Below are positions 8,966 through 25,092 of a stretch of DNA of 29,908 bases, piece by piece. The stretch covers positions 1 through 29,908 of the IMG/VR virus record IMGVR_UViG_3300037487_001607, one strand, 5' to 3'. Made by a program: the position numbers and the translations under genes. The notes below the pieces were generated by a model. The model was not told the DNA's origin. It was given only the letters and a program-made list of their open reading frames with translations, and searched no databases. Numbering within the stretch: position 1 is the first letter of the stretch; every line of letters begins with the position of its first letter. The stretch comes from a virus.

Positions 8966-9039
8966 ATACCACTCCTGTTTAAATAATAAAAAGTACAGAT
9001 AATTACGTATAACCGATAAAATATTTAATGTCAATCATT

Positions 9040-10482
9040 TTATATCCACCCAGACATTGATCTTTTTGCTGTTTTTGGGGTGATATATCTGGTACCCATG
9101 TAACCTTTTGCTGCTATAAAACCTGCATCGGCTACCATGGCTGCATATTGTAGGGCGTCGTGAAGATGAGAAAAGTTGTTTTTAACTGGGGTTTCCGAGT
9201 ACTTATCATCACCATAACCCCTGTATTTTTTTAACTTATACTCTCCTAAAAAGCCCTTCCGCATCATGTCACATGATGGGTCCAACTGGAACGCAGCCTT
9301 GCCACCAACCAGACGGGTTAAGAATATGTCAACAGCATTAAAACGGGCTAAAAAGGAATTACTCCTGGCAGGGGTGGCGGGAAACCCTTGTAGTCTTAAT
9401 TCGTCATATGCTGTCCGTTCGTCTGTATCCTGTCGTCTGATTCCAGCAGGATCTCCAGTACTGATAATCTCAAACCCTCTGTATTTAGACAGGAGATAAG
9501 GTTTTACAACATCGTTGAGAAATCTACGTAGACCTATATCTTCTTCGTATAACTCTTTTATGACATGGAATTTGCCGTTGGGAAGTAACTGGGTAATAAC
9601 ACAGGCACCTATCATGCCGAAATCGAAACCTAATATAAGTGGGATACCTTTTATGGCTTCTATGGGTTCGGTGGCAGTGTGTAAGAAGTCGGAGTAATTG
9701 CCATATACAGGTTTACCGTCACGGATGTATCCATACTGACCATCAATGTACACCTTTATATATTCCAGATCTTTCCCAATGGCTAGATTTTTATAATAAT
9801 CTTCATCGTTCCATTTTAGGTTTTCTGCTTGTTCTGATCTGCCTGATGGTTGATGAAACAGTTCGTATTTTGATGCGAGTTCTATGTCTTTAGGAACCTT
9901 TTCTTCGAATAACTTGTACAACTTGGAGTCTGTGTCTGGGGGATTTGTGTCTGCGATTATCCCTGACCATGTGAAACCACCATCCAATACAGATGGGAAC
10001 CTTTTTACCCGACCCTCCATAGCTTCGACAATTGCCCATGGAATTTCTCTGATTTCATTGAACCACGCACCAGTTAGTTCGAGGGATAATAGGTTACGCA
10101 CATGGTCAGGTTTATCGAGAGCCCTGAACAGTATTTCTATTTCGACCCTTGTACCATCATCGAGCGGGATTTTGTTAATTGTGTATTTGTGATCGCTGAC
10201 ATGATATGTTCCAAAAAACTCAGGGGGAATCCAATTAAAAAAGGTTACCATGGTTGTGTCTTTAAGTTGGGGATAGGTGTTACGGACAACTGCCCACCTA
10301 GTTCTTCTTACACCGTTGCTATCTGGTGCCTGTCTCATTCCCCTGTCTATGATCTCAGCCACACAACCAGAAGACTTACCACTTGAAAAAGGTCCAATTA
10401 TGCAACGAAAAAACTTGTCACACTCATTGAACTTTTTAATTGTAGGTACATCATCATAGTCGTATGTCTTGTTAAATCCCAT
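9040..10482 (-). CDS. terL: Terminase large subunit (packaging ATPase/nuclease)
   Basis: A protein of 480 aa, normal length for TerL. It pumps phage DNA into the prohead through the portal and cuts concatemers. The N-terminal ATPase has Walker A GPFSSGKSS (residues 30-38) and a Walker B-like ELTGAWFNEIREI (135-147). The C-terminal RNase H-fold nuclease shows the expected acidic triad: GFDFG (D287), STGDPAG (D344) and SHLHDALQYAAM (D442). The gene starts 1 nt after the TerS stop, and its AAAGG lies in the end of terS. The portal follows two genes downstream, the usual packaging order with one gene inserted. Confidence 0.95.
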   Translation of the reverse strand: MGFNKTYDYDDVPTIKKFNECDKFFRCIIGPFSSGKSSGCVAEIIDRGMRQAPDSNGVRRTRWAVVRNTYPQLKDTTMVTFFNWIPPEFFGTYHVSDHKYTINKIPLDDGTRVEIEILFRALDKPDHVRNLLSLELTGAWFNEIREIPWAIVEAMEGRVKRFPSVLDGGFTWSGIIADTNPPDTDSKLYKLFEEKVPKDIELASKYELFHQPSGRSEQAENLKWNDEDYYKNLAIGKDLEYIKVYIDGQYGYIRDGKPVYGNYSDFLHTATEPIEAIKGIPLILGFDFGMIGACVITQLLPNGKFHVIKELYEEDIGLRRFLNDVVKPYLLSKYRGFEIISTGDPAGIRRQDTDERTAYDELRLQGFPATPARSNSFLARFNAVDIFLTRLVGGKAAFQLDPSCDMMRKGFLGEYKLKKYRGYGDDKYSETPVKNNFSHLHDALQYAAMVADAGFIAAKGYMGTRYITPKTAKRSMSGWI

Positions 10483-10483
10483 G

Positions 10484-10945
10484 TTAACCTTTCTTTATTA
10501 TGAATACGGCCTTGTCGATATTGGTTGTGTCGCCTGATTTACCTGTTTTGTCACGTCCCAATAACGCCTCTCGGACTTCCAGGGCGGTACGTATATCGGT
10601 CATAGATTTGAGTTTCACTTTACTTTCCACGATATTCCCGTTCTCATCAATAATGGCCGCGTCTTTTAGCATGACATCTATTAATTTAAGGTTACGTTTA
10701 CGGCTGTCGGTGTGATCAGCGATACTCTCTATGTTTGCTGTGTCTATATGTTGCTGGTCCACCTTGATAACTTTATTGCGCCAGTCGAAAATCTTTGACC
10801 AGCGTTGTACTGTGAGAGGAGCCTTGTTCATCAACTTGGCTATTTTGACAAGACTGCGCTCGTCGCCCATTTTACAGTACTCTTCAAACGCACGTCGTTG
10901 CTCAACAGTTTCCTGACCTGCTGATAGTTTACGTCCAACCGACAT
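10484..10945 (-). CDS. terS: Terminase small subunit
   Basis: A protein of 153 aa directly upstream of terL. It has an N-terminal helix-turn-helix region (RSLVKIAKLMNKAPLTVQRW) followed by the W-x5-W pattern WSKIFDWRNKV, which is characteristic of phage small terminases and related DNA-binding proteins. The C-terminal half is helical and charged and suits oligomerisation. TerS recognises the pac or cos site and regulates TerL. The call rests on the HTH plus position; the sequence is too divergent to assign a subfamily by eye. Confidence 0.85.
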   Translation of the reverse strand: MSVGRKLSAGQETVEQRRAFEEYCKMGDERSLVKIAKLMNKAPLTVQRWSKIFDWRNKVIKVDQQHIDTANIESIADHTDSRKRNLKLIDVMLKDAAIIDENGNIVESKVKLKSMTDIRTALEVREALLGRDKTGKSGDTTNIDKAVFIIKKG

Positions 10946-10947
10946 TG

Positions 10948-11112
10948 TTATTTCCCCTTGTTTTTGAAATATTGAACTCGGCGTTCCTCTGCGTTGAACT
11001 CGTTTTCAGTGGGTTTCTCTTTACCGAAATACTTGAGAACCTTGCCCGTAGTCTTGCTGACCAGAGCATATTCCTTCTCGCCTGTGTTCGGGTTTGTAAC
11101 CTTACGAAGCAT
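10948..11112 (-). CDS. Small conserved-type phage protein (VLKYFG...EERRVQYFK)
   Basis: A protein of 54 aa starting MLRKVTNPNTGEK; an AGGAGG site lies 10 nt upstream of this ATG, which is preferred over a longer in-frame start inside the promoter region. The pattern ALVSKTTGKVLKYFG followed by EERRVQYFK resembles a family of short proteins I have seen in phage and other viral metagenome sequences; function unknown. It is strongly charged, with no membrane span. It is the first gene after the leftward promoter at 11144-11172 and lies 2 nt before terS, so it is probably co-expressed with packaging genes and could assist TerS or bind DNA. Confidence 0.7.
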   Translation of the reverse strand: MLRKVTNPNTGEKEYALVSKTTGKVLKYFGKEKPTENEFNAEERRVQYFKNKGK

Positions 11113-11143
11113 TTTCCACCACCTCCTGTACATAATATAAGGT

Positions 11144-11172
11144 ATAGTAGTGGAAAAAATTGGAAATGTCAA
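11144..11172 (-). promoter_or_regulatory. Sigma-70-type promoter for the leftward structural operon
   Basis: On the minus strand TTGACA (11167-11172), exactly 17 nt, then TACTAT (11144-11149). It lies just upstream of the 54-aa gene and terS/terL and points into the virion genes. The -35 matches the consensus fully and the -10 in 5 of 6 positions. Being host-type, it could fire without a phage RNA polymerase. Confidence 0.75.
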
Positions 11173-11190
11173 GCAAAAAAATGTTGAAAA

Positions 11191-11697
11191 TTATAATTTT
11201 AATGACAACTGTGTTTCTAAAAAATTTAGTGTTGCATATTCTCCATAATATTTTTTTGCAGCCATATCATATGCGTAAGCTGCTTCTATTGGGTCACTGT
11301 AATATCCAACATGTTTTCCATTTTTCTTTATGTGCAAAGATGCTCTCCATTTGTTTTTATTTTTATCCCATGACACGCCATGATATCCAGACGTATTTGT
11401 ACAATATAATTTATGATTCATTGTATTTTCAGACATGGAAACTATTCTTAAATTCTCCTTTCTGTTGTCTAACCCGTTACGATTAATATGATCTGATATT
11501 TTACCATCCCTATGTTGAAGTCCTAAAATTTCTCTATGCATATCTATTGTTGTTGTTTTTCCATTTTTTAATACAGAACGAGATGCATAGTAAGAATGGC
11601 GTGCTTTGTGAGAAAACCATTTAAATTTTGATAACCATTTGTAATCATCATCGTCAACAATAGTAACCATGCCCTTTGTTAGTTTTATTTCTTTCAT
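11191..11697 (-). CDS. HNH homing endonuclease with AP2 domain
   Basis: A protein of 168 aa starting MKEIKLTKG, with AGGAGG 7 nt upstream. Residues ~50-100 hold the HNH core (IDMHREILG, SDHINRNGLDNRKENLRIVS), and the C-terminal part is an AP2-type DNA-binding domain (TSGYHGVSWDKNKNKWRASL, then AAYAYDMAAKKYYGEYATLN). HNH-AP2 proteins are classic free-standing mobile endonucleases of phages. It sits in the divergent control region with its own promoter, separating the two halves of the genome. Base composition is more AT-rich than in the terminase genes, consistent with separate acquisition. Confidence 0.9.
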   Translation of the reverse strand: MKEIKLTKGMVTIVDDDDYKWLSKFKWFSHKARHSYYASRSVLKNGKTTTIDMHREILGLQHRDGKISDHINRNGLDNRKENLRIVSMSENTMNHKLYCTNTSGYHGVSWDKNKNKWRASLHIKKNGKHVGYYSDPIEAAYAYDMAAKKYYGEYATLNFLETQLSLKL

Positions 11698-11722
11698 ATA
11701 ACAACCTCCTGTAATTTTCTTA

Positions 11723-11751
11723 ATAATGCATAAAAATAATTCAAAAGTCAA
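11723..11751 (-). promoter_or_regulatory. Sigma-70-type promoter for the HNH-AP2 gene
   Basis: On the minus strand TTGACT (11746-11751), a 17-nt spacer, and CATTAT (11723-11728), 26 nt upstream of the HNH-AP2 start. It may also feed the downstream structural operon. The -10 overlaps an ATGCATTA sequence that recurs at the rightward promoter. Confidence 0.65.
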
Positions 11752-11766
11752 GCTTTTTTGTCGCCT

Positions 11767-11790
11767 CGCGCGCGTGCGCACGCTGCGCGC
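11767..11790. other. Alternating purine-pyrimidine GC tract (Z-DNA-prone quasi-palindrome)
   Basis: Positions 11767-11783 alternate pyrimidine and purine without a break (CG repeats with one TG and one CA step), and 11784-11790 repeats GCGCGC. The core GCGTGCGCACGC is a perfect 12-bp palindrome. It stands out sharply from the AT-rich flanks and lies between divergent promoters. A run of C follows at 11818-11825. Confidence 0.6.
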
Positions 11791-11858
11791 TTCCTTTTAT
11801 ATTTATTATGCGCGCGACCCCCCCCTCAAAAAAAGTTTTAAAAAGCATCAAAAAAATG

Positions 11859-11887
11859 TTGACAAACAAAAAAAGGGATGATAGTAT
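11859..11887 (+). promoter_or_regulatory. Sigma-70-type promoter for the rightward early operon
   Basis: TTGACA (11859-11864), a 17-nt spacer, then TAGTAT (11882-11887). It lies 29 nt before the HTH regulator start and heads the long plus-strand operon. The -35 is perfect and the -10 matches 4 of 6 bases, so it may need activation or be intrinsically moderate. Confidence 0.65.
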
Positions 11888-11916
11888 GCATTAAAAAGTT
11901 GGGGGAGGTAGAAGAA

Positions 11917-12111
11917 ATGGAATTAAAACGCAACCTTAGATTGAGAAACAAATTGTGGGATCTTTGCTTAACACAGTATTATTTGGCTATGATAACAAAA
12001 ATTCCAGAAGCATATATATCAAAATTCATAAATGGAGGTATGTCACCAACAGAAGATCAGAAAAGAAGAATTGCGGAAGCGTTGGAAGTGGAAATAAACG
12101 AACTGTTCTAA
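11917..12111 (+). CDS. Small Cro/CI-type HTH regulator
   Basis: A protein of 64 aa starting MELKRNLRLRNKLWD. The start chosen has GGGAGG 9 nt upstream; a longer frame would begin inside the promoter -10. The helix-turn-helix reads QYYLAMITKIPEAYISKFINGG, followed by SPTEDQKRRIAEALEVEINELF, the standard ending of the XRE/Cro family. It is the first gene of the rightward operon, at a divergent promoter region, so it probably represses one or both promoters, as Cro does in temperate phages. No integrase or full-length CI is visible, so a temperate lifestyle is not implied. Confidence 0.85.
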   Translation: MELKRNLRLRNKLWDLCLTQYYLAMITKIPEAYISKFINGGMSPTEDQKRRIAEALEVEINELF

Positions 12112-12135
12112 CGAAACAAAGAAAAGGATTGACAA

Positions 12136-13161
12136 ATGGAATGTAAGTTAAAAAGTCCCACCTTTAAAACGTCCGAGCCGTATTCACTTGATACCGATTG
12201 TTTGTACAGACAGGCAAATGGTAGGCATGTTGGATACTGCAAGAGACCAGAACTGTACAGGTGTGTGGAAGACGTATGGAAGAAACCCATTTTACTATCA
12301 CACACTGGATTACAATCGTTCCTAACCTGCCATCGTTTATATTATTTGAAGTATATCAGGGGGATTGAGACAAGAAAAAATATGTTGTCTGTTCCATTGA
12401 AACTCGGTATACTATGGGATGCGTCTTTACAATTTTTGTTAGGCAAGACGGATGTCAATATGAATGATATAATTGATGAGTATGAGATTGAGAACAGGGA
12501 GATCGCCAAGGTACGTGCGTTGTACAGGGCGGTCAAAACACTGGAGATTAAGTTTGACATGAACTGTGAAATCCAACCTTCTTTCTTTTATAACCTGGAC
12601 CTGCACGAGGACAACAAGGATGCTGATAAATTGGTTGTAAATGGAAAGTATGACAGGAAGTATGCTGACGGATTTGTGGAGACCAAGCTGAGTGGCAGAC
12701 CAGATTTTTATCTTGACATCTTCTTCCTGCAATCACAAGTCGGGACATATTTTGCAGTTGACAAAAGCCTGGAATACTGTACAATGGAAATTTCCCGTAC
12801 ACCGGATCTGAGGAGCACGGGACAGTACAAAGAAGAGTCTGATGATAATTACGAAGAAAGGTGTTATCAGGACATTATCAGTAGACCGTCTTATTATTTC
12901 ATCGGGTATGATAAAAACAAACATACATATGGTAAGAAGTATTATAGATCTGAGTTTGATCTGGATGAGGTAATGGACAGGTTTAAACATTGCGCCAGAG
13001 AGATAAAGGAAGCTGCTGTGTGTGACGGATGGTATAAAAATGACAGGGTATGTAACCAAATATTACCAGGCATACAGTGTGATATGCTGTCTGTATGCAG
13101 ACACAACACAATGTCGGAAACAATGTTTAAGATAAAAGATATTCCACCAACCAAAGTATAG
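12136..13161 (+). CDS. PD-(D/E)XK nuclease, Cas4/AddB-like, with cysteine cluster
   Basis: A protein of 341 aa. LSHTGLQSFLTCHRLYYLKYIRG (about residues 54-76) matches the opening of Cas4/AddB-type nucleases, with C65 as first cluster cysteine; C306, C315 and C321 near the C-terminus could complete a 4Fe-4S site. The metal-binding aspartate is probably D191 in SGRPDFYL. The downstream strand is MEISRTPDLR (E219), where typical Cas4 has E-x-K, so the lysine is displaced or missing. The MEISRTPDLR ... DIISRPSYYF pattern recalls a phage nuclease family usually placed beside recombination genes. It probably processes DNA ends for the Sak4-like annealing system. The activity is inferred. Confidence 0.75.
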   Translation: MECKLKSPTFKTSEPYSLDTDCLYRQANGRHVGYCKRPELYRCVEDVWKKPILLSHTGLQSFLTCHRLYYLKYIRGIETRKNMLSVPLKLGILWDASLQFLLGKTDVNMNDIIDEYEIENREIAKVRALYRAVKTLEIKFDMNCEIQPSFFYNLDLHEDNKDADKLVVNGKYDRKYADGFVETKLSGRPDFYLDIFFLQSQVGTYFAVDKSLEYCTMEISRTPDLRSTGQYKEESDDNYEERCYQDIISRPSYYFIGYDKNKHTYGKKYYRSEFDLDEVMDRFKHCAREIKEAAVCDGWYKNDRVCNQILPGIQCDMLSVCRHNTMSETMFKIKDIPPTKV

Positions 13162-13174
13162 AAAAGGAGAAGGA

Positions 13175-13636
13175 ATGAACAAAATAAAATTTAAATATGG
13201 CCCATATAAAATACAGGATCAAAATGATAAAACGAGATGGGTTGGTATTTTGCCAAACGGGAAGAAAACTTCTCGTGCCAGACTAATCATGATGAATTTT
13301 TTACACACAGACAACATCCCTCGTGTATTCCATATTCATCATATTAATAGAGACACACAAGATGATGTTTTGGACAACCTGCAACTTATGTCCATTATAG
13401 ATCATATGCAACTCCATACTCCTCGTGATTATAAGTATGGATTTTCAAGTACAGAAGATCACATAGCATATCAAAAGGCATTACGTAATTCGCCTGATTA
13501 CCATGAAGGCTACCTTGTAAAACGAAGAAGGTACTATCACGATGTATTAAGGCACAATGCAACATACGTACAAAAAAATAGGGAAAGAGTGGCAATCTAT
13601 AATCAAACCCACAGAAAAAGAATAGGAGAAAAGTAA
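13175..13636 (+). CDS. HNH endonuclease
   Basis: A protein of 153 aa. The HNH core is VFHIHHINRDTQDDVLDNLQ (about residues 52-71), with the paired HH and the D-x3-N-L helix typical of HNH homing endonucleases. A basic C-terminal region (VKRRRYYHDVLRHNATYVQKNRERV) could bind DNA. AAGGAG precedes the ATG. Its stop overlaps the start of the Sak4-like gene (TAATG). It is inserted between two genes of the recombination module, as is usual for mobile free-standing HNH genes. Confidence 0.85.
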   Translation: MNKIKFKYGPYKIQDQNDKTRWVGILPNGKKTSRARLIMMNFLHTDNIPRVFHIHHINRDTQDDVLDNLQLMSIIDHMQLHTPRDYKYGFSSTEDHIAYQKALRNSPDYHEGYLVKRRRYYHDVLRHNATYVQKNRERVAIYNQTHRKRIGEK

Positions 13637-14409
13637 TGAGAATATACAATAAAGATGAAATGATAGACACTGACGGAAGTATGGTTTTACTATATGGCGA
13701 ATCTGGTACGGGCAAGAGCGTGACCACCATTCAGACGGCCCCTGACCCAATTCTTTATTTAATGGCAGAACCGAGATCTGTTAATAAAATGATCGCTGCT
13801 GCCCAAAGGCCAGACGTAAAGATTAAATTTGGGTTTTACGAGGGTTGGGACGACATAATGGAATTTGTATCTAATAAGGATAATTTTACCGGAGCAAAAA
13901 CTATTGTTATAGATTCTCTTACACATTTAATGTCCATTGGACTAAGTGATGAGCTTATGGAAGAAAGTTATGAATCTCTCGATAAAAAGAAAGGCGTGGA
14001 AAAAGATTTAACCATGAGGGTTAAAATGTCAATCGAATCCTATGGAGCACTATCTGGACAAATGCTTAGATTTACTAATGCAATTTCAAAACTTAGCCAA
14101 ATTGGATATATTGTTATTTGTCTGGCAAGGGTAGAACAAAACCCTAAATTCAATAGGGCTTTGGCAGCTGCTCCATCTTTTCGTGGCAAGGAGTATATGA
14201 AATACGTTGCTGGATTTATGGATTATATTGGGCTTGTCGAAAGTAGGGTTGAAGATAGTATGGTTGTATACCCACCATTGGTAAGTTTTCAAGATGATGG
14301 TTCATATATTAGCAAGTGGTGCGGAATTATGCCTGAAGGTGGGGTATATAAGAGAGTGCTGAATATTGAGAAGATATTAAATGTGGCACATGGTAAGAAT
14401 GGTAAATAA
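13636..14409 (+). CDS. Sak4-like RecA-fold ATPase (single-strand annealing/recombination)
   Basis: A protein of 257 aa. Walker A GESGTGKS is at residues 21-28 and the Walker B strand KTIVIDSLTHL at 88-98. Size and layout fit the short phage RecA/Rad51-like core proteins known as Sak4 (AAA_24), which assist strand annealing together with a neighbouring single-strand-binding protein. That partner is probably the 166-aa protein two genes on. No N-terminal DNA-binding domain of full RecA is present. The start overlaps the HNH stop by one base. Confidence 0.85.
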   Translation: MRIYNKDEMIDTDGSMVLLYGESGTGKSVTTIQTAPDPILYLMAEPRSVNKMIAAAQRPDVKIKFGFYEGWDDIMEFVSNKDNFTGAKTIVIDSLTHLMSIGLSDELMEESYESLDKKKGVEKDLTMRVKMSIESYGALSGQMLRFTNAISKLSQIGYIVICLARVEQNPKFNRALAAAPSFRGKEYMKYVAGFMDYIGLVESRVEDSMVVYPPLVSFQDDGSYISKWCGIMPEGGVYKRVLNIEKILNVAHGKNGK

Positions 14410-14433
14410 AACCGAAAGGAGGCACAGTATCAA

Positions 14434-14460
14434 ATGACTAAAACAGAAAGGAGAAACTGA
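14434..14460 (+). CDS. Possible 8-codon leader ORF
   Basis: ATG to TGA encodes only MTKTERRN. An AAAGGAGG lies 11 nt upstream, a long spacing. The stop touches the ATG/GTG region of the next gene, and the mini-ORF contains that gene's own AAAGGAG, so a ribosome reading it would cover or expose that site. It may be a translational-coupling leader or chance. Confidence 0.25.
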   Translation: MTKTERRN

Positions 14461-14462
14461 AT

Positions 14463-14729
14463 GTGGTAAAACAAAAGTGGGTAGAGTTTGAGGATACGAA
14501 TATTGTAGCGTATCTTCACTATAAGGGACATGATTTTGCTCCTTATAAAAAAGGTAGGGATCGGGTTGCTTTTAGGGTATTTGGGGAAGATATTGAGGAG
14601 GACTTGTCGGATATGTATAGTGATACGGTTATCCAGAACTTCCTTAAGTGTCTAAAGGCGGTCAGATCATCAATGTTCACTATGAAAAGCATAACACATG
14701 AAGAAAAAGAAATGGAGGATACAATATGA
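14463..14729 (+). CDS. DUF5659-like small protein
   Basis: A protein of 88 aa with a GTG start (14463); the nearby ATG at 14461 hits a stop after one codon. AAAGGAG lies 8-9 nt upstream. The sequence NIVAYLHYKGHDF...RDRVAFRVFGEDIEEDLSDMY...NFLKCLKAVRSSMF fits the pattern I associate with DUF5659: a layer of strands (AYLxxKGH, RVxFxF) followed by helices. Function is unknown; the family is common in phage and viral operons. It sits between the Sak4-like ATPase and the DUF669-like protein and overlaps the latter by four bases, which suggests co-translation. Confidence 0.65.
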   Translation: MVKQKWVEFEDTNIVAYLHYKGHDFAPYKKGRDRVAFRVFGEDIEEDLSDMYSDTVIQNFLKCLKAVRSSMFTMKSITHEEKEMEDTI

Positions 14730-15226
14730 GAGTAAAAGGAAGAAGTGAAGCAGATTGGGGATTCAGAGTACCTACACCTGGTTGGCATACGGTATGTTTC
14801 CAGGAAGGAATTGATCTGTTTACTAATGAAACGTCAGGTAAACAGTCGGTAACCGTTCCTGCTGTTATTGATGAAGGCGGGGCTGATGATGGTATCAGAT
14901 TGACCGTATTCTGCCCATATAAGGATGATACAGGTGGGTATAGTTCTTTTGGAGAACAGAAACTGGCTGATGTTCTGTCGGCTGTTGGTCTGTTTGACAA
15001 GTTCGAGGAAAAATACCCAGGTGATGTCAGTCTGTTTGAGGCTCATATTCTGGAGGCTATCAAGATTAAAGTCCCTGGATGTTTTGCCAAGATGAAAGTG
15101 GAGTTGTCTAAAGACGGGAAGTATTCCAATATCGTTGGGATCGCTGGTACAAAGGCGGATACTTCTACGGTTAAAGCGGAAAAGCCTGCCAAGTCCACTG
15201 GCAAACAGGCACCTGCTGACTGGTAA
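14726..15226 (+). CDS. DUF669-like protein, putative phage ssDNA-binding protein
   Basis: A protein of 166 aa. The N-terminal two thirds are beta-rich (GWHTVCFQEGIDLFTN, IRLTVFCPYKDDTGG), followed by a helical region (FGEQKLADVLSAVGLFDKFEEKYPGD) and a strand pair ending KMKVELSKDGKYSNIVGIAG. The last ~25 residues are disordered and K/A/P-rich, ending in APADW. This order matches DUF669-type proteins that accompany Sak4-like recombinases and bind single-stranded DNA. GGAGG precedes the ATG, which overlaps the previous stop (ATGA). The acidic tail usual in SSBs is weak here, so the call is by similarity and context. Confidence 0.65.
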   Translation: MRVKGRSEADWGFRVPTPGWHTVCFQEGIDLFTNETSGKQSVTVPAVIDEGGADDGIRLTVFCPYKDDTGGYSSFGEQKLADVLSAVGLFDKFEEKYPGDVSLFEAHILEAIKIKVPGCFAKMKVELSKDGKYSNIVGIAGTKADTSTVKAEKPAKSTGKQAPADW

Positions 15227-15233
15227 TTAAACA

Positions 15234-15328
15234 TGGGGCTGATGTACGTTTATAACATGAAAGACTCTCGACTACATGTTATACGCTCTAGCGGTAGAAC
15301 GATGATGTTGCATCAGCCCCACTTTTTT
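15234..15328 (+). ncRNA. Three-way-junction structured RNA with terminal U-tract
   Basis: Outer stem P1 pairs TGGGGCTGATG (15234-15244) with CATCAGCCCCA (15311-15321), 11 bp. Inside, P2 pairs TATAACATG (15251-15259) with CATGTTATA (15275-15283), 9 bp around a 15-nt loop. P3 pairs CGCTCTA (15284-15290) with TAGAACG (15295-15301) around a GCGG tetraloop with one C-A mismatch. T6 follows at 15323-15328, so the whole may end transcription. It separates the recombination genes from the phosphoesterase gene. Compared with a simple hairpin terminator it is far larger and branched, so a processed small RNA, a cis-regulator or a nuclease-resistant RNA are alternatives. Confidence 0.55.
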
Positions 15329-15343
15329 AGAAGGGGAATATGA

Positions 15344-16153
15344 ATGAAAGCAGACGCATTGGTATATACTGTTAACTATAAATACGGTGATGAGATAAAA
15401 ATTAAACCATTAATGGACTTGCACAAGGGTGCAAAAACATGTGATATTAAAGGTTTTAAAGAATACATAAAAGATAGAGATGATAAAACCTATTTTCTCA
15501 CAAACGGTGACCTGTGGGACATGATTTTCTTTAATGATAAAAGATTCAGACCTTCGGGGCATGACCTGACAGATACAGATGATGCCATAGATTCAGAAAT
15601 TGAAGAAATGGTTAATGACCTTGATGAAATAAAAGACAGAATAATTGCCGTTGGTACTGGTAACCACGAAGACTGCGTAACAAAATCCTGCCACACAAAT
15701 CCATCTAAAAGACTTGCTGATAAAATTGGTGTTCCATACATGGGATATTCTTACTGGTTAAGATTGGCTCTTACAGAAGATGGAGCTCGCGGTAGAACTG
15801 TAGATTTTTTTATCCACCATGGGTTTGGTGGTGGCATGAGAACAGAAGGTGGTTCTATTACCAAGTACTCCAGATTTGCTGACAGATTTTTATGTGACGT
15901 ATTTCTCACAGGACATGATCACAAAAAACAGTTTGTGAGATATCCCATGCTTGGGATTACTGGTGTTAAAGAAGCAAAACTGTATGGCAAATCTAAGGTT
16001 ATATTACTCGGCGGTAGTTGGAAAAAGACCTATGGCATGGGAACTACTGTTACATGGGAAGAAACAAAAGGATTTCCTCCTTCTGAAATAGGAGGTGTGA
16101 CAATAGGAATTAAACCAAACGGCAAATGGGTTGATATTAACGTATCAATGTAA
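15344..16153 (+). CDS. Calcineurin-like metallophosphoesterase
   Basis: A protein of 269 aa with the full set of two-metal phosphoesterase motifs: DLH (25-27), NGDLWD with GD at 55-56, GTGNHED with GNHE at 106-109, a histidine in IHHGFGG (158-159), and GHDH (190-193). This is the fold of Mre11/SbcD nucleases and of many phosphatases. The helical capping and dimer regions of SbcD are not recognisable, and no SbcC-like ATPase is beside it, so substrate is open. Next to nuclease and recombination genes, a DNA-end or RNA phosphatase/nuclease role is plausible. AAGGGG precedes the ATG; the gene follows the structured RNA element. Confidence 0.85.
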   Translation: MKADALVYTVNYKYGDEIKIKPLMDLHKGAKTCDIKGFKEYIKDRDDKTYFLTNGDLWDMIFFNDKRFRPSGHDLTDTDDAIDSEIEEMVNDLDEIKDRIIAVGTGNHEDCVTKSCHTNPSKRLADKIGVPYMGYSYWLRLALTEDGARGRTVDFFIHHGFGGGMRTEGGSITKYSRFADRFLCDVFLTGHDHKKQFVRYPMLGITGVKEAKLYGKSKVILLGGSWKKTYGMGTTVTWEETKGFPPSEIGGVTIGIKPNGKWVDINVSM

Positions 16154-16167
16154 AAAGGAGGAATGGA

Positions 16168-16482
16168 ATGAAAAGTAAGGACACAGAAATAAATGTATAC
16201 ATGAAAGACATACTCCAAGAAATGTTCCGTATTGTTGGTGCAGAATATTCAGATGAGTTTGTAAAAAAAGAAAACTGGTTTATGGAATACGAATGGGATG
16301 AAAAACAACAGGATGAATTTGCAAACTGGCTTGTTAATTATCTAAAGGGTAACAGGGAGGCTCGTAAGCATTTCTTTGGCAGGTCTGTTCTGTCTAACAG
16401 GGTATTAAAGGACAGCATCGCCATGTTTTTGTTCCACTGTGGATGGAAATTTAAGGAGGAGATAGAAGATGAAACAGCGTAA
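16168..16482 (+). CDS. Hypothetical phage protein
   Basis: A protein of 104 aa, soluble, acidic and aromatic. The pattern YEWDEKQQDEFANWLVNYLKGNREAR, then KDSIAMFLFHCGWKF, looks like a small helical phage family I have seen without an assigned function. There are no metal-binding or catalytic motifs. AGGAGG lies before the ATG, and its 3' end overlaps the next gene by 14 nt. Confidence 0.75.
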   Translation: MKSKDTEINVYMKDILQEMFRIVGAEYSDEFVKKENWFMEYEWDEKQQDEFANWLVNYLKGNREARKHFFGRSVLSNRVLKDSIAMFLFHCGWKFKEEIEDETA

Positions 16483-16678
16483 GTATGTGTTGAATTGGTT
16501 TGATAGGCTTGTTGTGAAGTATTTGCAGGGCAACAAGGAACGGACTGAAATAATTGTGTCTTCTTCGTTTGAGGGTTATAGGGTGGGGAAGATCCGAAAA
16601 GACTCTGGTGTAAAGAAAGGAAAGGTGGTATATGAAAACGTGGAATCAGGTCAAACAGTCGGGATCGGAACATTATAA
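16469..16678 (+). CDS. Hypothetical basic small protein
   Basis: A protein of 69 aa, not recognised. The N-terminal helix (QRKYVLNWFDRLVVKYLQ) is followed by a basic beta-type half (TEIIVSSSFEGYRVGKIRK). AAGGAGGAG lies 7 nt before the ATG. It overlaps both neighbours (14 nt upstream, 47 nt downstream), so translation is probably coupled. The 47-nt overlap is unusually long, but both frames have plausible start signals. Confidence 0.6.
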   Translation: MKQRKYVLNWFDRLVVKYLQGNKERTEIIVSSSFEGYRVGKIRKDSGVKKGKVVYENVESGQTVGIGTL

Positions 16679-16889
16679 AACTGGTGACGTGGAACCGATT
16701 GACTTATACAGGTCTCTTGGTATACTCAGACCGTTCGCTATTGCCAGTATTATTAAGTACAGTTCACGCAACGTAGGCGACGGGACCCAGGCGAGCGATC
16801 CTGTCAGTAATAAAGACATGCAAAAGATAATCCACTATGCAGAAATACTGATGTGTGTGTGCGGTGACTCCTATGAGAGTGAAACCTAG
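16632..16889 (+). CDS. DUF3310 family protein
   Basis: A protein of 85 aa. SEHYKTGDVEPIDLYRSLG, then AIASIIKYSSRN, then DMQKIIHYAEIL reproduces the DUF3310 signature: an HY-x-G-x-EPID opening, an IIKY-x-x-R helix and a final helix usually ending in LDxL. The family is widespread in phages and sometimes labelled nucleotide-kinase-like; no biochemical role is established from sequence here. AAAGGTGG lies 4-5 nt before the ATG. Confidence 0.8.
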   Translation: MKTWNQVKQSGSEHYKTGDVEPIDLYRSLGILRPFAIASIIKYSSRNVGDGTQASDPVSNKDMQKIIHYAEILMCVCGDSYESET

Positions 16890-17394
16890 AAAAAGTAAGG
16901 GCATAAAAGTGAGGGCGAATAGAAACACCGAACTAAAGTCCCACATTATACCCGAAGACATGGTTGTTGTAATTGATACACGTGAGCAGGTTCCCCTTTG
17001 GATGCCAAAACCTCCCAAGGGGCTTGTGATCATGAGAGATACATTACAAAATGGTGACTATAGTATCAAGGGACACGAACACAAATTCGCCATTGAACGG
17101 AAAAACAGTGATTTATTTGCCTTTTTGACGTCAGAAAGAGCGAAGACCAAGGAAAAACTGAACAGGTTGCTTGATTATGACTTCAAGGCATTGGTAATCG
17201 AATATTCCGAAGACGAATTGTTCATGCCTCAGTTATTTACTAACATTTCACCAGAAGTAGTAAGGCAATCTCTTATAAGTTTCGAGATAAAATATGGTTT
17301 GCACGTGTATTATGGTACAAAAAGTGATATAGAAAGGAAGGTTTTAGACTGGATGGTTTATTATTTTAACTACAAACGAGGAGGGACTAAATAA
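16855..17394 (+). CDS. ERCC4-domain (XPF/Mus81-type) nuclease
   Basis: A protein of 179 aa from the longest start; an alternative ATG at 16873 has a weak GGTGA in front and gives 173 aa with a very basic N-terminus. The nuclease core has VVIDTRE (D41, R43, E44), QNGDYSIKG (GDYSI 67-71) and the hallmark ERK (residues 81-83). A helical region follows, then PEVVRQSLISFEIKYGLHVYYG. ERCC4 nucleases cut branched DNA, flaps or fork structures next to double-strand/single-strand junctions. With no helicase domain or HhH, it resembles archaeal and phage minimal XPF proteins. The XPD-like helicase lies three genes downstream. Confidence 0.85.
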   Translation: MCAVTPMRVKPRKSKGIKVRANRNTELKSHIIPEDMVVVIDTREQVPLWMPKPPKGLVIMRDTLQNGDYSIKGHEHKFAIERKNSDLFAFLTSERAKTKEKLNRLLDYDFKALVIEYSEDELFMPQLFTNISPEVVRQSLISFEIKYGLHVYYGTKSDIERKVLDWMVYYFNYKRGGTK

Positions 17395-17966
17395 TGCGTA
17401 AGACAGGAAGGGAAAAAGCGAATTGGGATGATACCAGTTGGACTGAACATGTTAATTGGAACGAAGTTATAGACAAAATACCATTAGCCATAACATATGG
17501 TAAGGGTGTTCCGATTATACGTAAAACTGTGTACATGAACCAGTGGCACCAACACGTCATGGAACAAATATTGCATGAGGCAAGAGAATATTTCCGAACA
17601 GAAACGGATCTAACACGTTCGGTCATGAACACAGGTCTTGTTATGTATTACAATATATTTATGAAAAACAAGGCATCTCTGTCAGCCGACGAAGCGTTCT
17701 TCTATCAAAGTATCCGTGAATGCGAAAAGGCATGGAAAGCATCTGACATGGCTGAGGTAGTAAAACATGTTGTTTGTGAGAACACTAGACGTAAACGAAG
17801 AAAGATCCTCACAAACGAAAAGGCACAATCTTTGTATCTCGACACAATAAATAGACTCCCTAGTAAATTTAAGGAAGAGGTTTTGTCCATACTAGACGAA
17901 GAATCTAAGGACAATATTATTTCCAATGTTACATTTAATAAGTCTGTTGTAAAAGGAGAATCGTGA
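17394..17966 (+). CDS. Hypothetical protein, possible RHH-like segment
   Basis: A protein of 190 aa, not recognised. It is mostly helical and charged. EAREYFRTETDLTRSVMNTGLVMYYN near residues 60-85 has the spacing of a ribbon-helix-helix DNA-binding segment (TxSDLxRxAxxxG), but it sits inside the protein rather than at the N-terminus. A basic patch (ENTRRKRRKIL) lies near residue 130. The start shares a base with the ERCC4 stop (TAATG). It may be a partner or regulator of replication proteins; that is context only. Confidence 0.65.
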   Translation: MRKTGREKANWDDTSWTEHVNWNEVIDKIPLAITYGKGVPIIRKTVYMNQWHQHVMEQILHEAREYFRTETDLTRSVMNTGLVMYYNIFMKNKASLSADEAFFYQSIRECEKAWKASDMAEVVKHVVCENTRRKRRKILTNEKAQSLYLDTINRLPSKFKEEVLSILDEESKDNIISNVTFNKSVVKGES

Positions 17967-18262
17967 TGCTTTCTACAGAAGAAAATGAAATATATGACTA
18001 CCTTTCTGATTATGACTTAAAAATTGAACATGCTAGAAAAGAGTTAATAAAAAAGAAAAATCGTGATTATAAAAGAAAGTTATACAATGAAGATCCAGAG
18101 TATAGAAGGAAAAAAGCATTGTATAACAAGCGGTGGAGAGAGAAGGAAAAAAGCGGAGAGTATATTCATGATCGTGGGAAAAGGTTTAAATTACCCACAC
18201 AAGAGGAATGGGACGAAATACAGTCCTGGTATGCCGAAAGAAGAAAGATAGGGGGTGCATAA
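17966..18262 (+). CDS. Hypothetical highly basic helical protein
   Basis: A protein of 98 aa from ATG 17966 (GGAG 7 nt upstream; the GTG at 17963 is too close to it). The middle (KKKNRDYKRKLYNEDPEYRRKKALYNKRWREKEK) is an array of basic, tyrosine-rich short repeats like those flanking HNH domains in mobile endonucleases, but no HNH core is present. Nucleic-acid binding is likely. It overlaps the previous stop (TGATG). It could be a remnant or DNA-binding half of a homing endonuclease, or an independent protein. Confidence 0.65.
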   Translation: MLSTEENEIYDYLSDYDLKIEHARKELIKKKNRDYKRKLYNEDPEYRRKKALYNKRWREKEKSGEYIHDRGKRFKLPTQEEWDEIQSWYAERRKIGGA

Positions 18263-18516
18263 GTGAATATTAGAATACCTACATATTTGAATATTAACAT
18301 ATTTACATATATAATGTTACATATTGGCATACCTACATATTGGCATACGGTACCCGAAAGATCTCCTGTAGATGTTGGGTCTCCACTGCTACTGTAAGTA
18401 AGATCATTATATGCTTTTGGGGTCGAATCGGAACCGAACCGTAATTACATTTTAACATATCTGCATATTTGATGTAACGCAGATTTAAATATTAGATGAA
18501 TAGAGGAAATGAATAA
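18263..18516 (+). repeat. Non-coding repeat and structured region upstream of the helicase gene
   Basis: There is no credible gene in these 254 nt. Positions 18281-18341 carry ACATATT at 18281, 18297, 18319 and 18335 plus ACATAT at 18305. Two copies of TACATATTGGCATAC lie in tandem at 18318-18332 and 18334-18348. Immediately after, CGGTACCCGA (18348-18357) can pair with TCGGAACCG (18428-18436), enclosing an inner GATCT/AGATC stem (18360-18364 / 18401-18405). The repeats look like iterons or operator sites, while the second half looks like a folded RNA leader for the helicase gene. The region could be a replication origin, a promoter control site or both. Confidence 0.5.
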
Positions 18517-20121
18517 ATGAATAATAGAATATTAGAGGCAAAGAATAGGTTCGAGAAGTTCAGGAATCTGCCTTTTAGGGAGCACCAGGCAGAGATTGTC
18601 GAATTTGCCTGTAGGAGTAAAAAGAAGTTTACTGTCATAGAGGCTCCTACAGGTATAGGAAAAACTCTGGCCGGTATGTGCATTGGGAGTATGTATGGTG
18701 GTGCGATTTATACCGTACATTCCAAGACACTGCAAAAGCAGATCGGGGAGGACTTCAAAGAAGTGCCTGTTTTATGGGGGAGGAATAATTATGCATGTTT
18801 GTATGATGATAAACTGACCACAGACATGTGCCCCCTTTCTAAGGACAAATGTGAGAACTACTGGGCGTGTTTGTATAATGTGGCTAAGTTAAAGGCGTCT
18901 AAGTCCAACCTGTGTACTTTAAACTACCACTATTTGCTCACAGAGGTGAATTTTGTCGGGGTCTTTAGTGGGCGTAACTTGATTATCATTGATGAAGCGG
19001 ATAGCCTAGAAACCGTTCTGGCTGACTTTATTGGGATTAATATTAATAACCGTATGGTCAAGGACTACAAGATACCATTTCCCTCGTATAAAACCACGTC
19101 CTCGCCAAAAAGTATTGATTCGTGGATAGAGTGGGCAGAAACACTTTTGGACTCCCTGGGGACCCATATGAGGCGAATTAAGATGTCTGTGGACACGACT
19201 GGGGATATTGTCAGTGAGGAACAGTATGAGGCGATTAAGAAGATAAAACAGATTGAGACCAATATGACCAAGTTGAATATGTTTATTGACAACGTGGATT
19301 CTTCCTGGTTGTATGAGGAACGGGAGAGTAAGTATGGAGTAAGCATACATTTTAATCCTACGTGGATCTCTGTGGATCTGGCGTATAAGTATTTATGGAA
19401 CCATGCTGACAAATTTGTGTTAATGTCTGCTACGTTTCCGTATTTGCCTGTATTAACCAAACTGCTAGGAATGGAACCTGGGGATGTGGACTACTCACAG
19501 TACCCTTCTATCTTTCCTGTGGAGAACAGACAGGTAAAATACGAGATCGCTGGTGACCTGGTATATGCCAAAATGAAAGAGGAGACTCCTAAGGTTATCA
19601 AAAAGGTTAAAGAGATAATCAATAGACCTGAGAACGTTAATGAAAAGGGGTTGATACATACTGTATCGTATAGGCTCGCTGATGAGATCATGAAGATAGG
19701 TGATAAGAGATTAGTTACCCATACCAATGACTCAGATAGATCCAGTATACTAGACAGGTTTATGTTTGCTCGTGAACCCCTGATCTTAGTGAGCCCCAGT
19801 ATGGAGAGGGGTATTTCTTTGGATGATGATTTGTGTCGGTTTGTGATATTTCTAAAAGCACCGTTTTTAAGTTTGGCAGACAAGTTGGTTAACGCTAGAT
19901 TGTTTGGAAGCCAAATTGGACAGATTTGGTTTATATCTCAAATGTTGTTGTCGGTGGTACAGGGTTGTGGACGTGCGGTTAGATCTAATAAAGATTATGC
20001 TAAGGCATACATTTTAGATTATCAAATACAAAAAGCAATTTCAAGAAATCCAAACATGGTTCCAAAATGGTTTCGAGATTCGGTATGGATTTTATTATTA
20101 TGTGTAATGGGGGTATCATAA
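18517..20121 (+). CDS. XPD/DinG-type superfamily 2 helicase with Fe-S cluster
   Basis: A protein of 534 aa. Walker A EAPTGIGKT is at 42-50, and motif II IIDEAD has DEAD at 159-162. Motif VI QGCGRAVR is at 482-489. Between motifs I and II are four cysteines (C94, C105, C112, C118) with the spacing of the XPD/DinG 4Fe-4S domain. These enzymes unwind DNA 5' to 3' and remove R-loops, D-loops and protein blocks. It should act in phage replication or recombination, perhaps with the ERCC4 nuclease. The last ~12 residues (WILLLCVMGVS) turn abruptly hydrophobic right before an HNH gene, so the original C-terminus may have been replaced. Start: AGAGGAAA about 9 nt upstream. Confidence 0.85.
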   Translation: MNNRILEAKNRFEKFRNLPFREHQAEIVEFACRSKKKFTVIEAPTGIGKTLAGMCIGSMYGGAIYTVHSKTLQKQIGEDFKEVPVLWGRNNYACLYDDKLTTDMCPLSKDKCENYWACLYNVAKLKASKSNLCTLNYHYLLTEVNFVGVFSGRNLIIIDEADSLETVLADFIGININNRMVKDYKIPFPSYKTTSSPKSIDSWIEWAETLLDSLGTHMRRIKMSVDTTGDIVSEEQYEAIKKIKQIETNMTKLNMFIDNVDSSWLYEERESKYGVSIHFNPTWISVDLAYKYLWNHADKFVLMSATFPYLPVLTKLLGMEPGDVDYSQYPSIFPVENRQVKYEIAGDLVYAKMKEETPKVIKKVKEIINRPENVNEKGLIHTVSYRLADEIMKIGDKRLVTHTNDSDRSSILDRFMFAREPLILVSPSMERGISLDDDLCRFVIFLKAPFLSLADKLVNARLFGSQIGQIWFISQMLLSVVQGCGRAVRSNKDYAKAYILDYQIQKAISRNPNMVPKWFRDSVWILLLCVMGVS

Positions 20122-20814
20122 ATGAGAGTTTGCACAATATGTGGAACAGCAAAAGAAAATTCTTGTTTCTATAAAGAAAAAAGACGCATAGACGGTCTTC
20201 GTCTTTATTGTAAAACATGTTCTTCCCTACAAGTTAAAAAATGGTATCATGCTCATCTTGAACAAGCTAGAGCAACAAATATGAGACACAAACGTGCACA
20301 TCCAGAAAAAGTTAGGGCACAGATTAAAAAATGGCGTGCAGAGAATCCAGGCATAGTTAAGTTAAATAGAGATAAATGGATAAACAACAACAGGGGTAGG
20401 TTTAATGAATTACAAAGGAAAGTTAAACTTAAAATAAGGGCAACATTAAAGGGAAAATTAACCCATAAAATTGGTATGTCTATCAGAAATACAGTGCAAG
20501 CTAAAAGTAAAAATAACAAACACTGGGAAATACTTGTTGGTTATACGGTTGAGGAACTAATAAATTATTTAGAAAAATTATTTACACCTAACATGACGTG
20601 GGATAATTATGGTCCTGTATGGCATATAGATCATAAAATACCAATTTCTGTATTTAATTTTGAAACACCAGATGACATTGATTTTAAAAAATGTTGGTGT
20701 TTGGATAATTTACAGCCACTAGAAGCATCTAAAAACTGGAGTAAACGTGCAAATTTAACCGAACCATTCCAACCATCTTTACTTATTAATTTACAAAAGA
20801 AAGGAGAAATATGA
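20122..20814 (+). CDS. HNH endonuclease with N-terminal zinc finger
   Basis: A protein of 230 aa. The N-terminus has CTICG (C4, C7) and a second CxxC in LYCKTCSS (about residues 29-32), a zinc finger usual in phage recombination-endonuclease-like HNH proteins. A long basic helical middle follows. The C-terminal HNH is WHIDHKIPISVFNF, then CWCLDNLQPLEASKNWSK. The ATG directly abuts the helicase stop codon (TAAATG); the GGGGG in the helicase 3' end may act as its ribosome site. It is a mobile free-standing homing endonuclease by family. Confidence 0.9.
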   Translation: MRVCTICGTAKENSCFYKEKRRIDGLRLYCKTCSSLQVKKWYHAHLEQARATNMRHKRAHPEKVRAQIKKWRAENPGIVKLNRDKWINNNRGRFNELQRKVKLKIRATLKGKLTHKIGMSIRNTVQAKSKNNKHWEILVGYTVEELINYLEKLFTPNMTWDNYGPVWHIDHKIPISVFNFETPDDIDFKKCWCLDNLQPLEASKNWSKRANLTEPFQPSLLINLQKKGEI

Positions 20815-21098
20815 AAACACCGTCTGAATTATGTATAGAATGTATGAAGTGTTGTCAATCAATAGGGTGGTATGTCAACGCCAAAGACCTGCACGCTATT
20901 GCTTTTTATATTGCTCGTGGGTGCAAGTTGTATATGTATGATGAAAACTCTGTATTGGTATCGGTGCCCCATGTATGTCAGCATTTGGGAGAACACGGAT
21001 GTAAGATATATGACAAGAGACCGTTGATATGTAAGGCATATGATGGTCGTATGGATCCTAGTCTGAAAGGAGAGTGTTTATGGAATCTGTTGGGGTAG
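20811..21098 (+). CDS. YkgJ-type cysteine cluster protein
   Basis: A protein of 95 aa. The N-terminus has C-x2-C-x2-CC (C8, C11, C14, C15), then CQHLGEHGCKIYDKRPLICKAY (C56, C64, C74) and a last C89. This is the signature of the YkgJ family of metal- (zinc or iron-sulphur) binding proteins, whose function is poorly known. AAAGGAG lies before the ATG, which overlaps the previous HNH stop (ATGA). In cells such proteins often accompany oxygenases or modification enzymes; here it is simply embedded in the replication operon. Confidence 0.8.
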   Translation: MKTPSELCIECMKCCQSIGWYVNAKDLHAIAFYIARGCKLYMYDENSVLVSVPHVCQHLGEHGCKIYDKRPLICKAYDGRMDPSLKGECLWNLLG

Positions 21099-21508
21099 TT
21101 GATAGTTATAAGCCTAAACCGTATAAGAAACATAAGACCACGGAGGAGCACTTTGAAACCTACAAAGCGGAGATAGAAAAACTATGGACAATGTTCCAGA
21201 TGAGTGGTATTAGTACGTTTTATCAGCACACTAAGATACAAGCCAGGGCTGCGTATAAGATTAGTTCTGACATGGTTGTGTCGTATTGTTTGTCTACTGA
21301 ATGGTATCAGTGCGAGGAACCTACTAATGAGGATGTAAAAAAATCTGCCAGACACGAGTTTTCTCACTCGTTGGTTGGGATAATTGATTTACTTGCTCAT
21401 GACAGGCACGCTACTGCAGCCGCACTGAAAATGGAGTTCGAGAGATTTGCTAATATAATGGAGGATTTTTTGACTAAACTGTATGAAGGGAGGATTGAGT
21501 ATAAGTGA
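21080..21508 (+). CDS. Small HExxH (SprT/zincin-like) protein
   Basis: A protein of 142 aa starting MESVGVVDSY at the ATG with AAGGAG 7 nt upstream; an upstream in-frame GTG lies inside that spacing. KSARHEFSHSLVGIID (around residue 90) has HEFSH, an HExxH zinc-peptidase motif on a helix, followed by an acidic-rich helix (KMEFERFANIMEDF) that could give a third ligand. The overall pattern resembles small SprT-like or phage putative metallopeptidases. The preceding strand AAYKISSDMVVSYCLS fits the edge strand of such folds. Peptidase activity is inferred; structural use of zinc is possible. Confidence 0.6.
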   Translation: MESVGVVDSYKPKPYKKHKTTEEHFETYKAEIEKLWTMFQMSGISTFYQHTKIQARAAYKISSDMVVSYCLSTEWYQCEEPTNEDVKKSARHEFSHSLVGIIDLLAHDRHATAAALKMEFERFANIMEDFLTKLYEGRIEYK

Positions 21509-22059
21509 ATAAAATAAACTTACTTGGCAAAAGATTTGGTAGACTTGTTGTTATCCAAGAGCATCCATCTCTTAAAACACCTAATCAAAAGAAAATATCT
21601 TGGACTAGATGGAAGTGTTTATGTGATTGTGGTAAAGAAACAATTGTTCGTACTGGCAATTTGTCCAATTATAGAACATTTTCTTGTGGATGTATAAGAA
21701 TTGAAAAATTAAAGTCCGAAAAACGTGAAACTGCTAGAAATTGGAAAGGTGGTAGAGACACGAACCCAGCAGGTTATATATATGTATATAGTCCAGAACA
21801 TAAAAATTCTGGTACAAATGGTAGAGTTGCAGAACATGTTTTAGTCATGTGTAAACATCTTGGTAGAATGTTGCATAAAGGTGAAAGTGTGCACCATTTA
21901 AACAATATTAAATCTGATAATAGAATTGAAAACCTTGAACTATGGACTACCAACCACCCAAACGGGTCAAGAGTTGAAGACATTATTAATTTTTCAATCG
22001 AAACACTAAAAAAATATAAACCAGAAGTACTGAAAAGTGAAAGGAGTAATAATATATAA
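21505..22059 (+). CDS. HNH endonuclease with N-terminal zinc ribbon
   Basis: A protein of 184 aa with GTG start overlapping the previous TGA; GGGAGG lies ~12 nt upstream. N-terminal GKRFGRLVVIQE, then WKCLCDCGKETIVRTGNL, then SCGC form the zinc-ribbon module commonly fused to phage HNH endonucleases. The HNH_3 core is HVLVMCKHLGRMLHKGES, then VHHLNNIKSDNRIENLEL, ending WTTNHPNGS. It is a free-standing mobile endonuclease. Visibly AT-richer than its flanking genes. Confidence 0.9.
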   Translation: MNKINLLGKRFGRLVVIQEHPSLKTPNQKKISWTRWKCLCDCGKETIVRTGNLSNYRTFSCGCIRIEKLKSEKRETARNWKGGRDTNPAGYIYVYSPEHKNSGTNGRVAEHVLVMCKHLGRMLHKGESVHHLNNIKSDNRIENLELWTTNHPNGSRVEDIINFSIETLKKYKPEVLKSERSNNI

Positions 22060-22577
22060 TGTTTATATATTTCGATTTGGATGGAGTTCTAAGAGACTTG
22101 GCTAATGCCGTGTTTAAGACTAAAGCCAAAGTATGGGACCAGGAAGACAACAACGGTAATGGGGTAATCGAAGCTGTTAACCGTAAACCCAGTATATTGA
22201 TCCAGGCTCGTAAGACACCCTACTGTGACCCCATACTGGATTTCATAGTGGAGCATGGGATGTATTTGTATCTGCTCTCTGCTCAACCTGGTAACTGGAG
22301 GGTTAATACCGACAGGTGGATTGAGAAGAATATTGTGAGGTATAGTCCTTATTTCAAAAAGGCTGATCCACGTGTTATATACGTGACTAAACCTGAACAG
22401 AAGTTACGTATGTTGAATAAAAAGAAAGGGGATGTACTGGTTGAGGATTACCCTAAGTTTGATGATTACTCTAGGATCATACTGATTGATTATATGTATA
22501 ACAGAACTGTTACGGGTATGTTGGCTCGTGTACGTACTCCTGAGGAGTTGATCGTTGAACTGGAGAAGTATGTCTGA
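22059..22577 (+). CDS. HAD-like phosphatase (possible 5'-nucleotidase)
   Basis: A protein of 172 aa. HAD motif I is FDLDGVLRD (D6 nucleophile, D8). LLSAQP (about residues 72-77) is the motif II serine region. Motif III/IV are probably K114-K-K and DVLVEDYPKFDDY (about 124-136). The short cap fits phage deoxyribonucleotidase/NT5C-like proteins, which would dephosphorylate nucleotides; polynucleotide phosphatase is an alternative. TAATG junction with the HNH gene upstream. Confidence 0.75.
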   Translation: MFIYFDLDGVLRDLANAVFKTKAKVWDQEDNNGNGVIEAVNRKPSILIQARKTPYCDPILDFIVEHGMYLYLLSAQPGNWRVNTDRWIEKNIVRYSPYFKKADPRVIYVTKPEQKLRMLNKKKGDVLVEDYPKFDDYSRIILIDYMYNRTVTGMLARVRTPEELIVELEKYV

Positions 22578-22595
22578 TTAAAAGCAGTATATGAT

Positions 22596-22616
22596 CCAGG
22601 CTCCAGGCTCCAGGAG
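22596..22616 (+). repeat. Three tandem 7-nt repeats (CCAGGCT, CCAGGCT, CCAGGAG)
   Basis: Three units sit back to back in the short gap between the HAD gene and the zinc-finger gene, two identical and the third differing at two bases. They are probably a replication-slippage product in the leader of the next gene; no function is evident. Confidence 0.55.
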
Positions 22617-22644
22617 CACGAGCAAGCATACAGAAAGGAAGTAT

Positions 22645-22986: not shown

Positions 22987-23011
22987 TAAAAAAATAGTTG
23001 TAAACAAACGA

Positions 23012-23086
23012 GCCGGAATAACTCAACGGGTAGAGGGGCATTTTGTAAGCGCCTGGTCGGTGGTTCGAGTCCGCCTTCCGGCTCCA
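23012..23086 (+). tRNA. tRNA-Thr (anticodon TGT), irregular anticodon stem
   Basis: The acceptor stem GCCGGAA pairs with TTCCGGC, with T73 and an encoded CCA. The D stem is CTC/GAG, and the T arm is GGTGG-TTCGAGT-CCGCC. The anticodon loop reads TTTGTAA, giving anticodon TGT (Thr). The anticodon stem GGCAT/GCGCC has an A-C mismatch and a T-G wobble, and the D-arm to anticodon joint seems one base short. It may be functional, edited, or a decaying copy. Confidence 0.75.
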
Positions 23087-23095
23087 AATAAATGT

Positions 23096-23172: not shown

Positions 23173-23192
23173 TAAAACGAAAGGAGTGAAAA

Positions 23193-24410: not shown

Positions 24411-24456
24411 TAAAAGTCGCAAAGACGGGATTTCTGCTTTTTCTTTGTCAGACAAA

Positions 24457-24574: not shown

Positions 24575-24591
24575 AGATATCAAAAAAAAAT

Positions 24592-25079: not shown

Positions 25080-25092
25080 TATCAGCCAACCG

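Follow-up and report, generated by a model that had tools for sequence, protein, structure and literature searches.

A T-tailed, branched stem behind the SSB-like gene of a phage recombination operon: a probable intrinsic terminator with an unusually long loop

The locus and the predicted fold

The window, by which we mean the whole stretch of DNA that was analysed, is the complete IMG/VR virus record IMGVR_UViG_3300037487_001607 of 29,908 bases, and is possibly a fragment. Judged from its predicted genes the record is a phage, as it encodes a terminase (PHROG 2), a Sak4-like protein, an ERCC4-type nuclease and a DinG/Rad3-type helicase. The element studied here sits between ORF 14726-15226 and ORF 15344-16153, all on the plus strand. 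The upstream ORF lies in the same module as the Sak4-like recombination gene (13636-14409, plus strand, identified by a profile match), and its protein has no match in PHROG or Pfam. We call this product SSB-like because its AlphaFold model, built on an eight-sequence alignment and having a mean pLDDT of 72, resembles PrgE, a plasmid ssDNA-binding protein that provides its best solved-structure matches (8s4s and 8s4t; E 6e-5 to 4e-4). Its low-complexity tail ends in W; among eight SSB-like tails a W or F is found at or near the end, and most of these tails are acidic, that of the window barely so. The downstream ORF encodes a phosphoesterase (PHROG 7339, DNA repair exonuclease), whose likely ribosome-binding site, read from the sequence as AGAAGGGG at 15329-15336 on the plus strand, abuts the T run of the element and is followed by the start codon seven bases 3'.

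Several other features of the window were recorded. Free-standing HNH-type endonuclease genes are interspersed with the phage genes at 11191-11781, 13175-13636, 20122-20814 and 21505-22059. The first of these scores above the cut-off of the Pfam family HNH_3 and the second slightly under it, while 20122-20814 is without a Pfam match and, like 21505-22059, was judged to be of HNH type by eye from its translation. Rfam and ARAGORN place the only two tRNAs of the window at 23012 and 23096, and a tRNA or tRNA remnant was thus rejected as an identity for the element. A 36-aa ORF that runs across the element (15233-15343) has no ribosome-binding site by eye and is read as a chance occurrence.

A preliminary description placed a three-way-junction RNA at 15234-15328, and the element was confirmed at these positions. 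The 95-nt sequence has a predicted minimum free energy of -35.2 kcal/mol (z -5.5; none of 200 shuffles was equally stable), and this fold is a three-way junction. Seven bases separate the SSB-like stop codon from the outer stem, which, as had been proposed, comprises 11 pairs, with its 5' arm at 15234-15244 and its 3' arm at 15311-15321 of the plus strand; it is recovered by the fold, the pair list and the stem scan described below. Its pair probabilities are 1.0 except for a closing U-A pair of 0.73, and it is prolonged by a U-G pair, an A-U pair (0.5) and then four pairs between 15247-15250 and 15304-15307 (plus strand, probabilities 0.78-0.95). In the version returned by the stem scan the outer stem has 13 pairs, one G-U and seven G-C among them, around a loop of 62 nt. 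A single base separates the stem from the predicted run of six T residues, which is present at 15323-15328 (plus strand, by sequence and stem scan) and is presumed to be the U tract of an intrinsic terminator.

Within the loop, inner hairpin 1 (15251-15283, plus strand) contains the 9-bp stem claimed earlier, called stem 2 here, a perfect inverted repeat TATAACATG/CATGTTATA that pairs 15251-15259 with 15275-15283 around a 15-nt loop. Inner hairpin 2 (15284-15301, plus strand), or stem 3, is weak, with pair probabilities of 0.66-0.75 and a stability equalled in 295 of 1000 shuffles. It had been described as a 7-bp stem with a tetraloop; the tetraloop GCGG is there, but the stem has six pairs and one C-A mismatch.

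The outer stem and the branched interior against chance

The two parts of this structure differ in how they compare with shuffled sequence. When both strands of the whole window were strictly scanned for stems of 10 or more pairs, no more than one of them G-U, next to a T run, the site of the element was the sole hit. The plus strand has one such stem, whereas 60 dinucleotide shuffles of it average 0.03, so the combination of outer stem and T run is no accident. The interior (15246-15310, 65 nt), taken alone, has a z of -0.16, and 416 of 1000 shuffles fold as well. When the outer stem was held fixed and the interior shuffled, 341 of 1000 sequences gave three-way junctions in which both inner stems had at least 5 pairs. 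The three-way shape is therefore no evidence of function, and of the cloverleaf-like form first taken to be distinctive the branching stands but the distinctiveness does not. Stem 2 is mildly unusual, since merely 12 of 1000 shuffles match its stability. With ~65 nt enclosed by this strong stem, a three-way junction arises in roughly one case in three, which is a warning that multi-branched folds alone are poor grounds for assigning function.

When the plus strand is folded in sliding windows with correction for composition, the element ranks fifth among 2981 windows, as the third separate peak after those at 28301 and 24411. The latter, which outranks the element, corresponds to a nested outer and inner stem at 24411-24500 followed by TTTTG, directly 3' of ORF 24003-24410, and 24400-24530 folds at -38.3 kcal/mol. 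Hairpins near T runs at 25092-25115 and ~28335-28371 resemble plain terminators. A short-loop terminator scan of window positions 9000-28900 found 13 candidates against 12.8 expected, so the window is not demonstrably rich in ordinary terminators; the element is absent from the output because its loop is too long.

To place the branched loop in a wider context, we surveyed T-tailed stems on both strands of 105 of 127 sequences (1.29 Mb; 22 duplicate or gene-only loci were excluded, and minus-strand coordinates follow reverse-complement numbering). This returned 51 T-tailed stems with 9 or more pairs, a count in which one L125 element appears on both strands and near-duplicate loci may persist. 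Twelve have loops of 41-90 nt and five of those are branched, namely the window element, the antisense of a tRNA-Thr gene and others in L100, L102 and L105. A branched loop is thus uncommon yet not unique. L100, a WOR-3 MAG contig, holds two T-tailed elements (12944-13015 and 13820-13897) with alike loops and unlike outer stems; the loops share segments such as GAAAATCTAT, TGTCCTT and GGACTATC, and neither element has an Rfam match.

Gene ends after the SSB-like gene in related phages

Relatives of the locus are distant. Nucleotide searches for relatives of the element locus returned none, nor did single-protein scans of viral contigs with the phosphoesterase, the SSB-like protein and the helicase. 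Protein searches of named phages returned distant helicases (487 records), five weak phosphoesterases and 23 terminases, with no match for the SSB-like and Sak4-like proteins, and scanning genome contigs with the helicase gave distant helicases alone among the matches listed. Alignment-based scans did reach related phages, at least those among the matches listed, which have in common with the window the gene at 12136 (a weak PD-(D/E)XK match) and the genes for Sak4, the SSB-like protein, ERCC4 and the helicase.

The comparison covered eleven lineages in which the SSB-like gene could be read (L006, L009, L090, L091, L096, L097, L098, L118, L122, L124 and L125), whose Sak4 proteins are 28-57% identical to that of the window. 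These lineages are partly dependent, with L118/L122, L006/L096 and L009/L097/L098 mutually closer than to the rest. Near-identical members were counted once: L119-L123 (98.9-99.95% identical; L122 used), L006, L007, L092 and L095 (L006 used), L009, L010, L093 and L094 (L009 used), L090, L110 and L126 (L090 used), and L091 and L111 (L091 used), the last four groups being merged on the evidence of contig names and of match figures that coincide. L117 was left unscored because its sequence ends inside Sak4.

The two inner stems were seen in none of the 11 relatives. This comes near the outcome that was to reduce the element to an ordinary terminator, with the proviso that the relatives are too distant to allow an alignment of the RNA. 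What follows the SSB-like gene is an unbranched hairpin in eight lineages (two with a clear T run), a branched fold in one, a tRNA-like text in one and nothing strong in one, L009. Plain hairpins with T5 in L090 and with T6 in L097, the latter 137 nt past the stop, lie shortly upstream of the next start codon. L098 nests a 9-pair hairpin inside a 19-pair stem that is followed by a weaker tail, TTTATT, and L125 has separate plain hairpins with TATT after the strongest. No T run accompanies the 16-pair hairpin of L091 or the long bulged hairpins (~90-115 nt) of L118, L122 and L124 (z -3.4, -3.6 and -4.3). The branched fold of L006 has a 6-pair outer stem and lies within the start of the next ORF. 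Folds of 190 nt also branch in L009, L091, L096, L097, L124 and L125, via flanking sequence (in L096 via the tRNA-like text), and shorter folds of L124 and L125 are unbranched hairpins.

We asked whether this site is special by ranking it against the other gene ends of the same loci, 8 to 44 per locus. The SSB-like gene end comes first for structure in L091, L006, L098 and L125 and second in the window, L090 and L124. It ranks fifth of 23 in L118 and fourth of 17 in L122, and it is unremarkable in L096, L097 and L009, where 5/17, 7/17 and 12/13 others are at least as structured. The combined Fisher p is 0.003 over 12 loci and 0.008 when the window and L118 are removed, a result that is suggestive only because several sites were inspected before the test and the loci are partly related. 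Structure thus suggestively tends to recur after the SSB-like gene in these loci, and terminators after well-expressed genes would yield an identical signal.

Additional observations were made in these relatives. The tRNA-like text of L096 (7558-7800) contains, by eye, tRNA-Leu-like halves with a long insert between them; when introns are permitted, ARAGORN makes a doubtful call of a tRNA-Ser with a 146-nt intron, and Rfam does not report the region. A homologue of the window phosphoesterase with 44% identity lies elsewhere in L117, on the other strand (3148-3921, minus strand), beside the small terminase gene and near a homologue of ORF 22059; these genes seem to be mobile cargo. A further structured element precedes an SbcC-like ATPase ORF in L118 (13425-13496) and L122 (4698-4768). 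Three of its 13 outer-stem pairs differ on both sides, an inner TTATATATTGGGGAATAT is identical (by eye), and Rfam has no match for it. On these two sequences only, it is a candidate conserved RNA.

Interpretation and comparison with known systems

We conclude that the element is probably an intrinsic (Rho-independent) terminator, and probably a leaky one, placed in a phage recombination operon, where it directly follows the SSB-like gene. As RNA polymerase arrives at the T run the outer stem would form and most transcripts would be released, with read-through transcripts supplying the phosphoesterase and later genes; the two minor hairpins in the long loop are probably tolerated and not functional. 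The stem, the T run, the position and the fact that the inner stems are unseen in the relatives found are observed directly, and termination itself, leakiness and polarity are what we infer. The terminator part of the preliminary description is thus well supported as a prediction, for a strong, stable stem stands directly before a T6 at the 3' end of a same-strand gene, with only seven bases between stop codon and stem. There is little promoter room between the T run and the phosphoesterase start, so downstream expression would depend on read-through. The element seems tied to the upstream gene and not to the phosphoesterase, because L090 and L097 share the layout with different downstream genes and because the phosphoesterase homologue of L117 sits elsewhere. 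Four points count against a terminator. The 62-nt loop is far longer than is typical, as more than 90% of terminator hairpins in one survey have loops of fewer than 13 bases (PMC8355165), a short loop being typical of terminators and not defining; additionally, stem 2 is mildly unusual in its stability. The hairpins at this place in L091, L118, L122 and L124 have no T run, and the short-loop scan gives no excess of ordinary terminators in the window. Overall, the element is real but ordinary, with an unusually long loop.

A broader reading, which we hold to be unlikely, is that the element is a structured 3' end of the SSB-like mRNA, conserved in position, that shields the message from 3' exonucleases or serves as a processing site, with termination as one form of it. 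The excess of structure over other gene ends of the same loci and the long bulged hairpins without a T run in L118, L122 and L124 argue for it, and these hairpins together with that of L091 mean that the role in common may be something other than termination. The statistic is modest, however, and was computed on sites partly seen beforehand in partly related loci, of which L009, L096 and L097 are unremarkable; the forms and sequences differ and make no case for common descent beyond L118/L122. Put in full, and as unlikely, this clade might reserve the end of its SSB-like gene for a fast-diverging structured RNA that sets the level or stability of the SSB message relative to downstream genes, one whose forms might be branched, long bulged or simple hairpins with or without a T run, the window junction being one. 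Recurrent structure after the SSB-like genes of this clade is a modest lead; should it hold up as further genomes are added, it would suggest that phage recombination operons have a common means of setting SSB levels.

That the element is a ligand-, protein- or tRNA-responsive, riboswitch-like terminator controlling the phosphoesterase gene is very improbable. Such a role would fit a three-way junction followed by a T run ahead of a start codon, and a ligand-responsive terminator had been proposed; the proposal found no support. Rfam has no match for the element, and a permissive Rfam search gave only two chance matches of snoRNA type, both on the opposite strand (E 0.35 and 3.7). No competing fold that could act as antiterminator was found within the 84 nt upstream, and forcing the 5' arm to remain unpaired, with these 84 nt included, moves the fold from -54.3 to -41.2, a penalty of 13 kcal/mol. 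Inner stems unseen in all the relatives, a phosphoesterase gene located elsewhere in L117 and a shape expected by chance weigh against it as well.

A DNA element, either an origin hairpin or an operator in the form of an inverted repeat, is similarly improbable. Iteron origins carry repeats of the kind seen right after the SSB-like stop codon in L122 (~4270-4308, four copies) and L118 (~13052-13082, three imperfect copies), where short direct repeats of ~AAGATGTTG lead into a T run and a long hairpin rich in GC, an arrangement that appears to resemble such an origin, and the 9 bp of stem 2 form a perfect inverted repeat. By eye, however, 15226-15344 of the window has one GATGTTG and no tandem repeats, and an operator was rejected because the half-site TATAACATG, with at most one mismatch, occurs at 16 sites against 12.5 expected, about the chance rate. 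Least probable of all is a small RNA released by processing, as proposed earlier, or a self-cleaving ribozyme, for beyond a compact fold with a terminator-like end there is no Rfam match, no second copy elsewhere in the record and no match among phages in a nucleotide search, in which plasmids gave just 25-26 nt chance matches. The second hairpin, searched for as an exact 17-nt string, was not found in viral contigs.

Three known systems invite comparison with the probable terminator. Three-way-junction riboswitches exist, for example the purine class, and the element has in common with them an outer stem around two hairpins, but it is without an Rfam match and no conserved junction was seen in the relatives. 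With a mid-operon attenuator that permits read-through it shares a terminator-like form, co-directional genes and little promoter room before the next start, but a leader ORF with a plausible ribosome-binding site was not found by eye, nor was an antiterminator found. Titles among the literature matches listed do not describe terminators that branch or structured RNAs downstream of SSB genes in phages, and a branched single unit is not among the shape classes I, L, U, V and X in the part of a published survey that names them (PMC8355165). The third likeness is to the L-shaped class of intrinsic terminators, a hairpin with a poly-U trail, with which the element shares a G+C-rich stem, a single base and then T6 near a stop codon, and from which it differs by a 62-nt loop able to form two hairpins.
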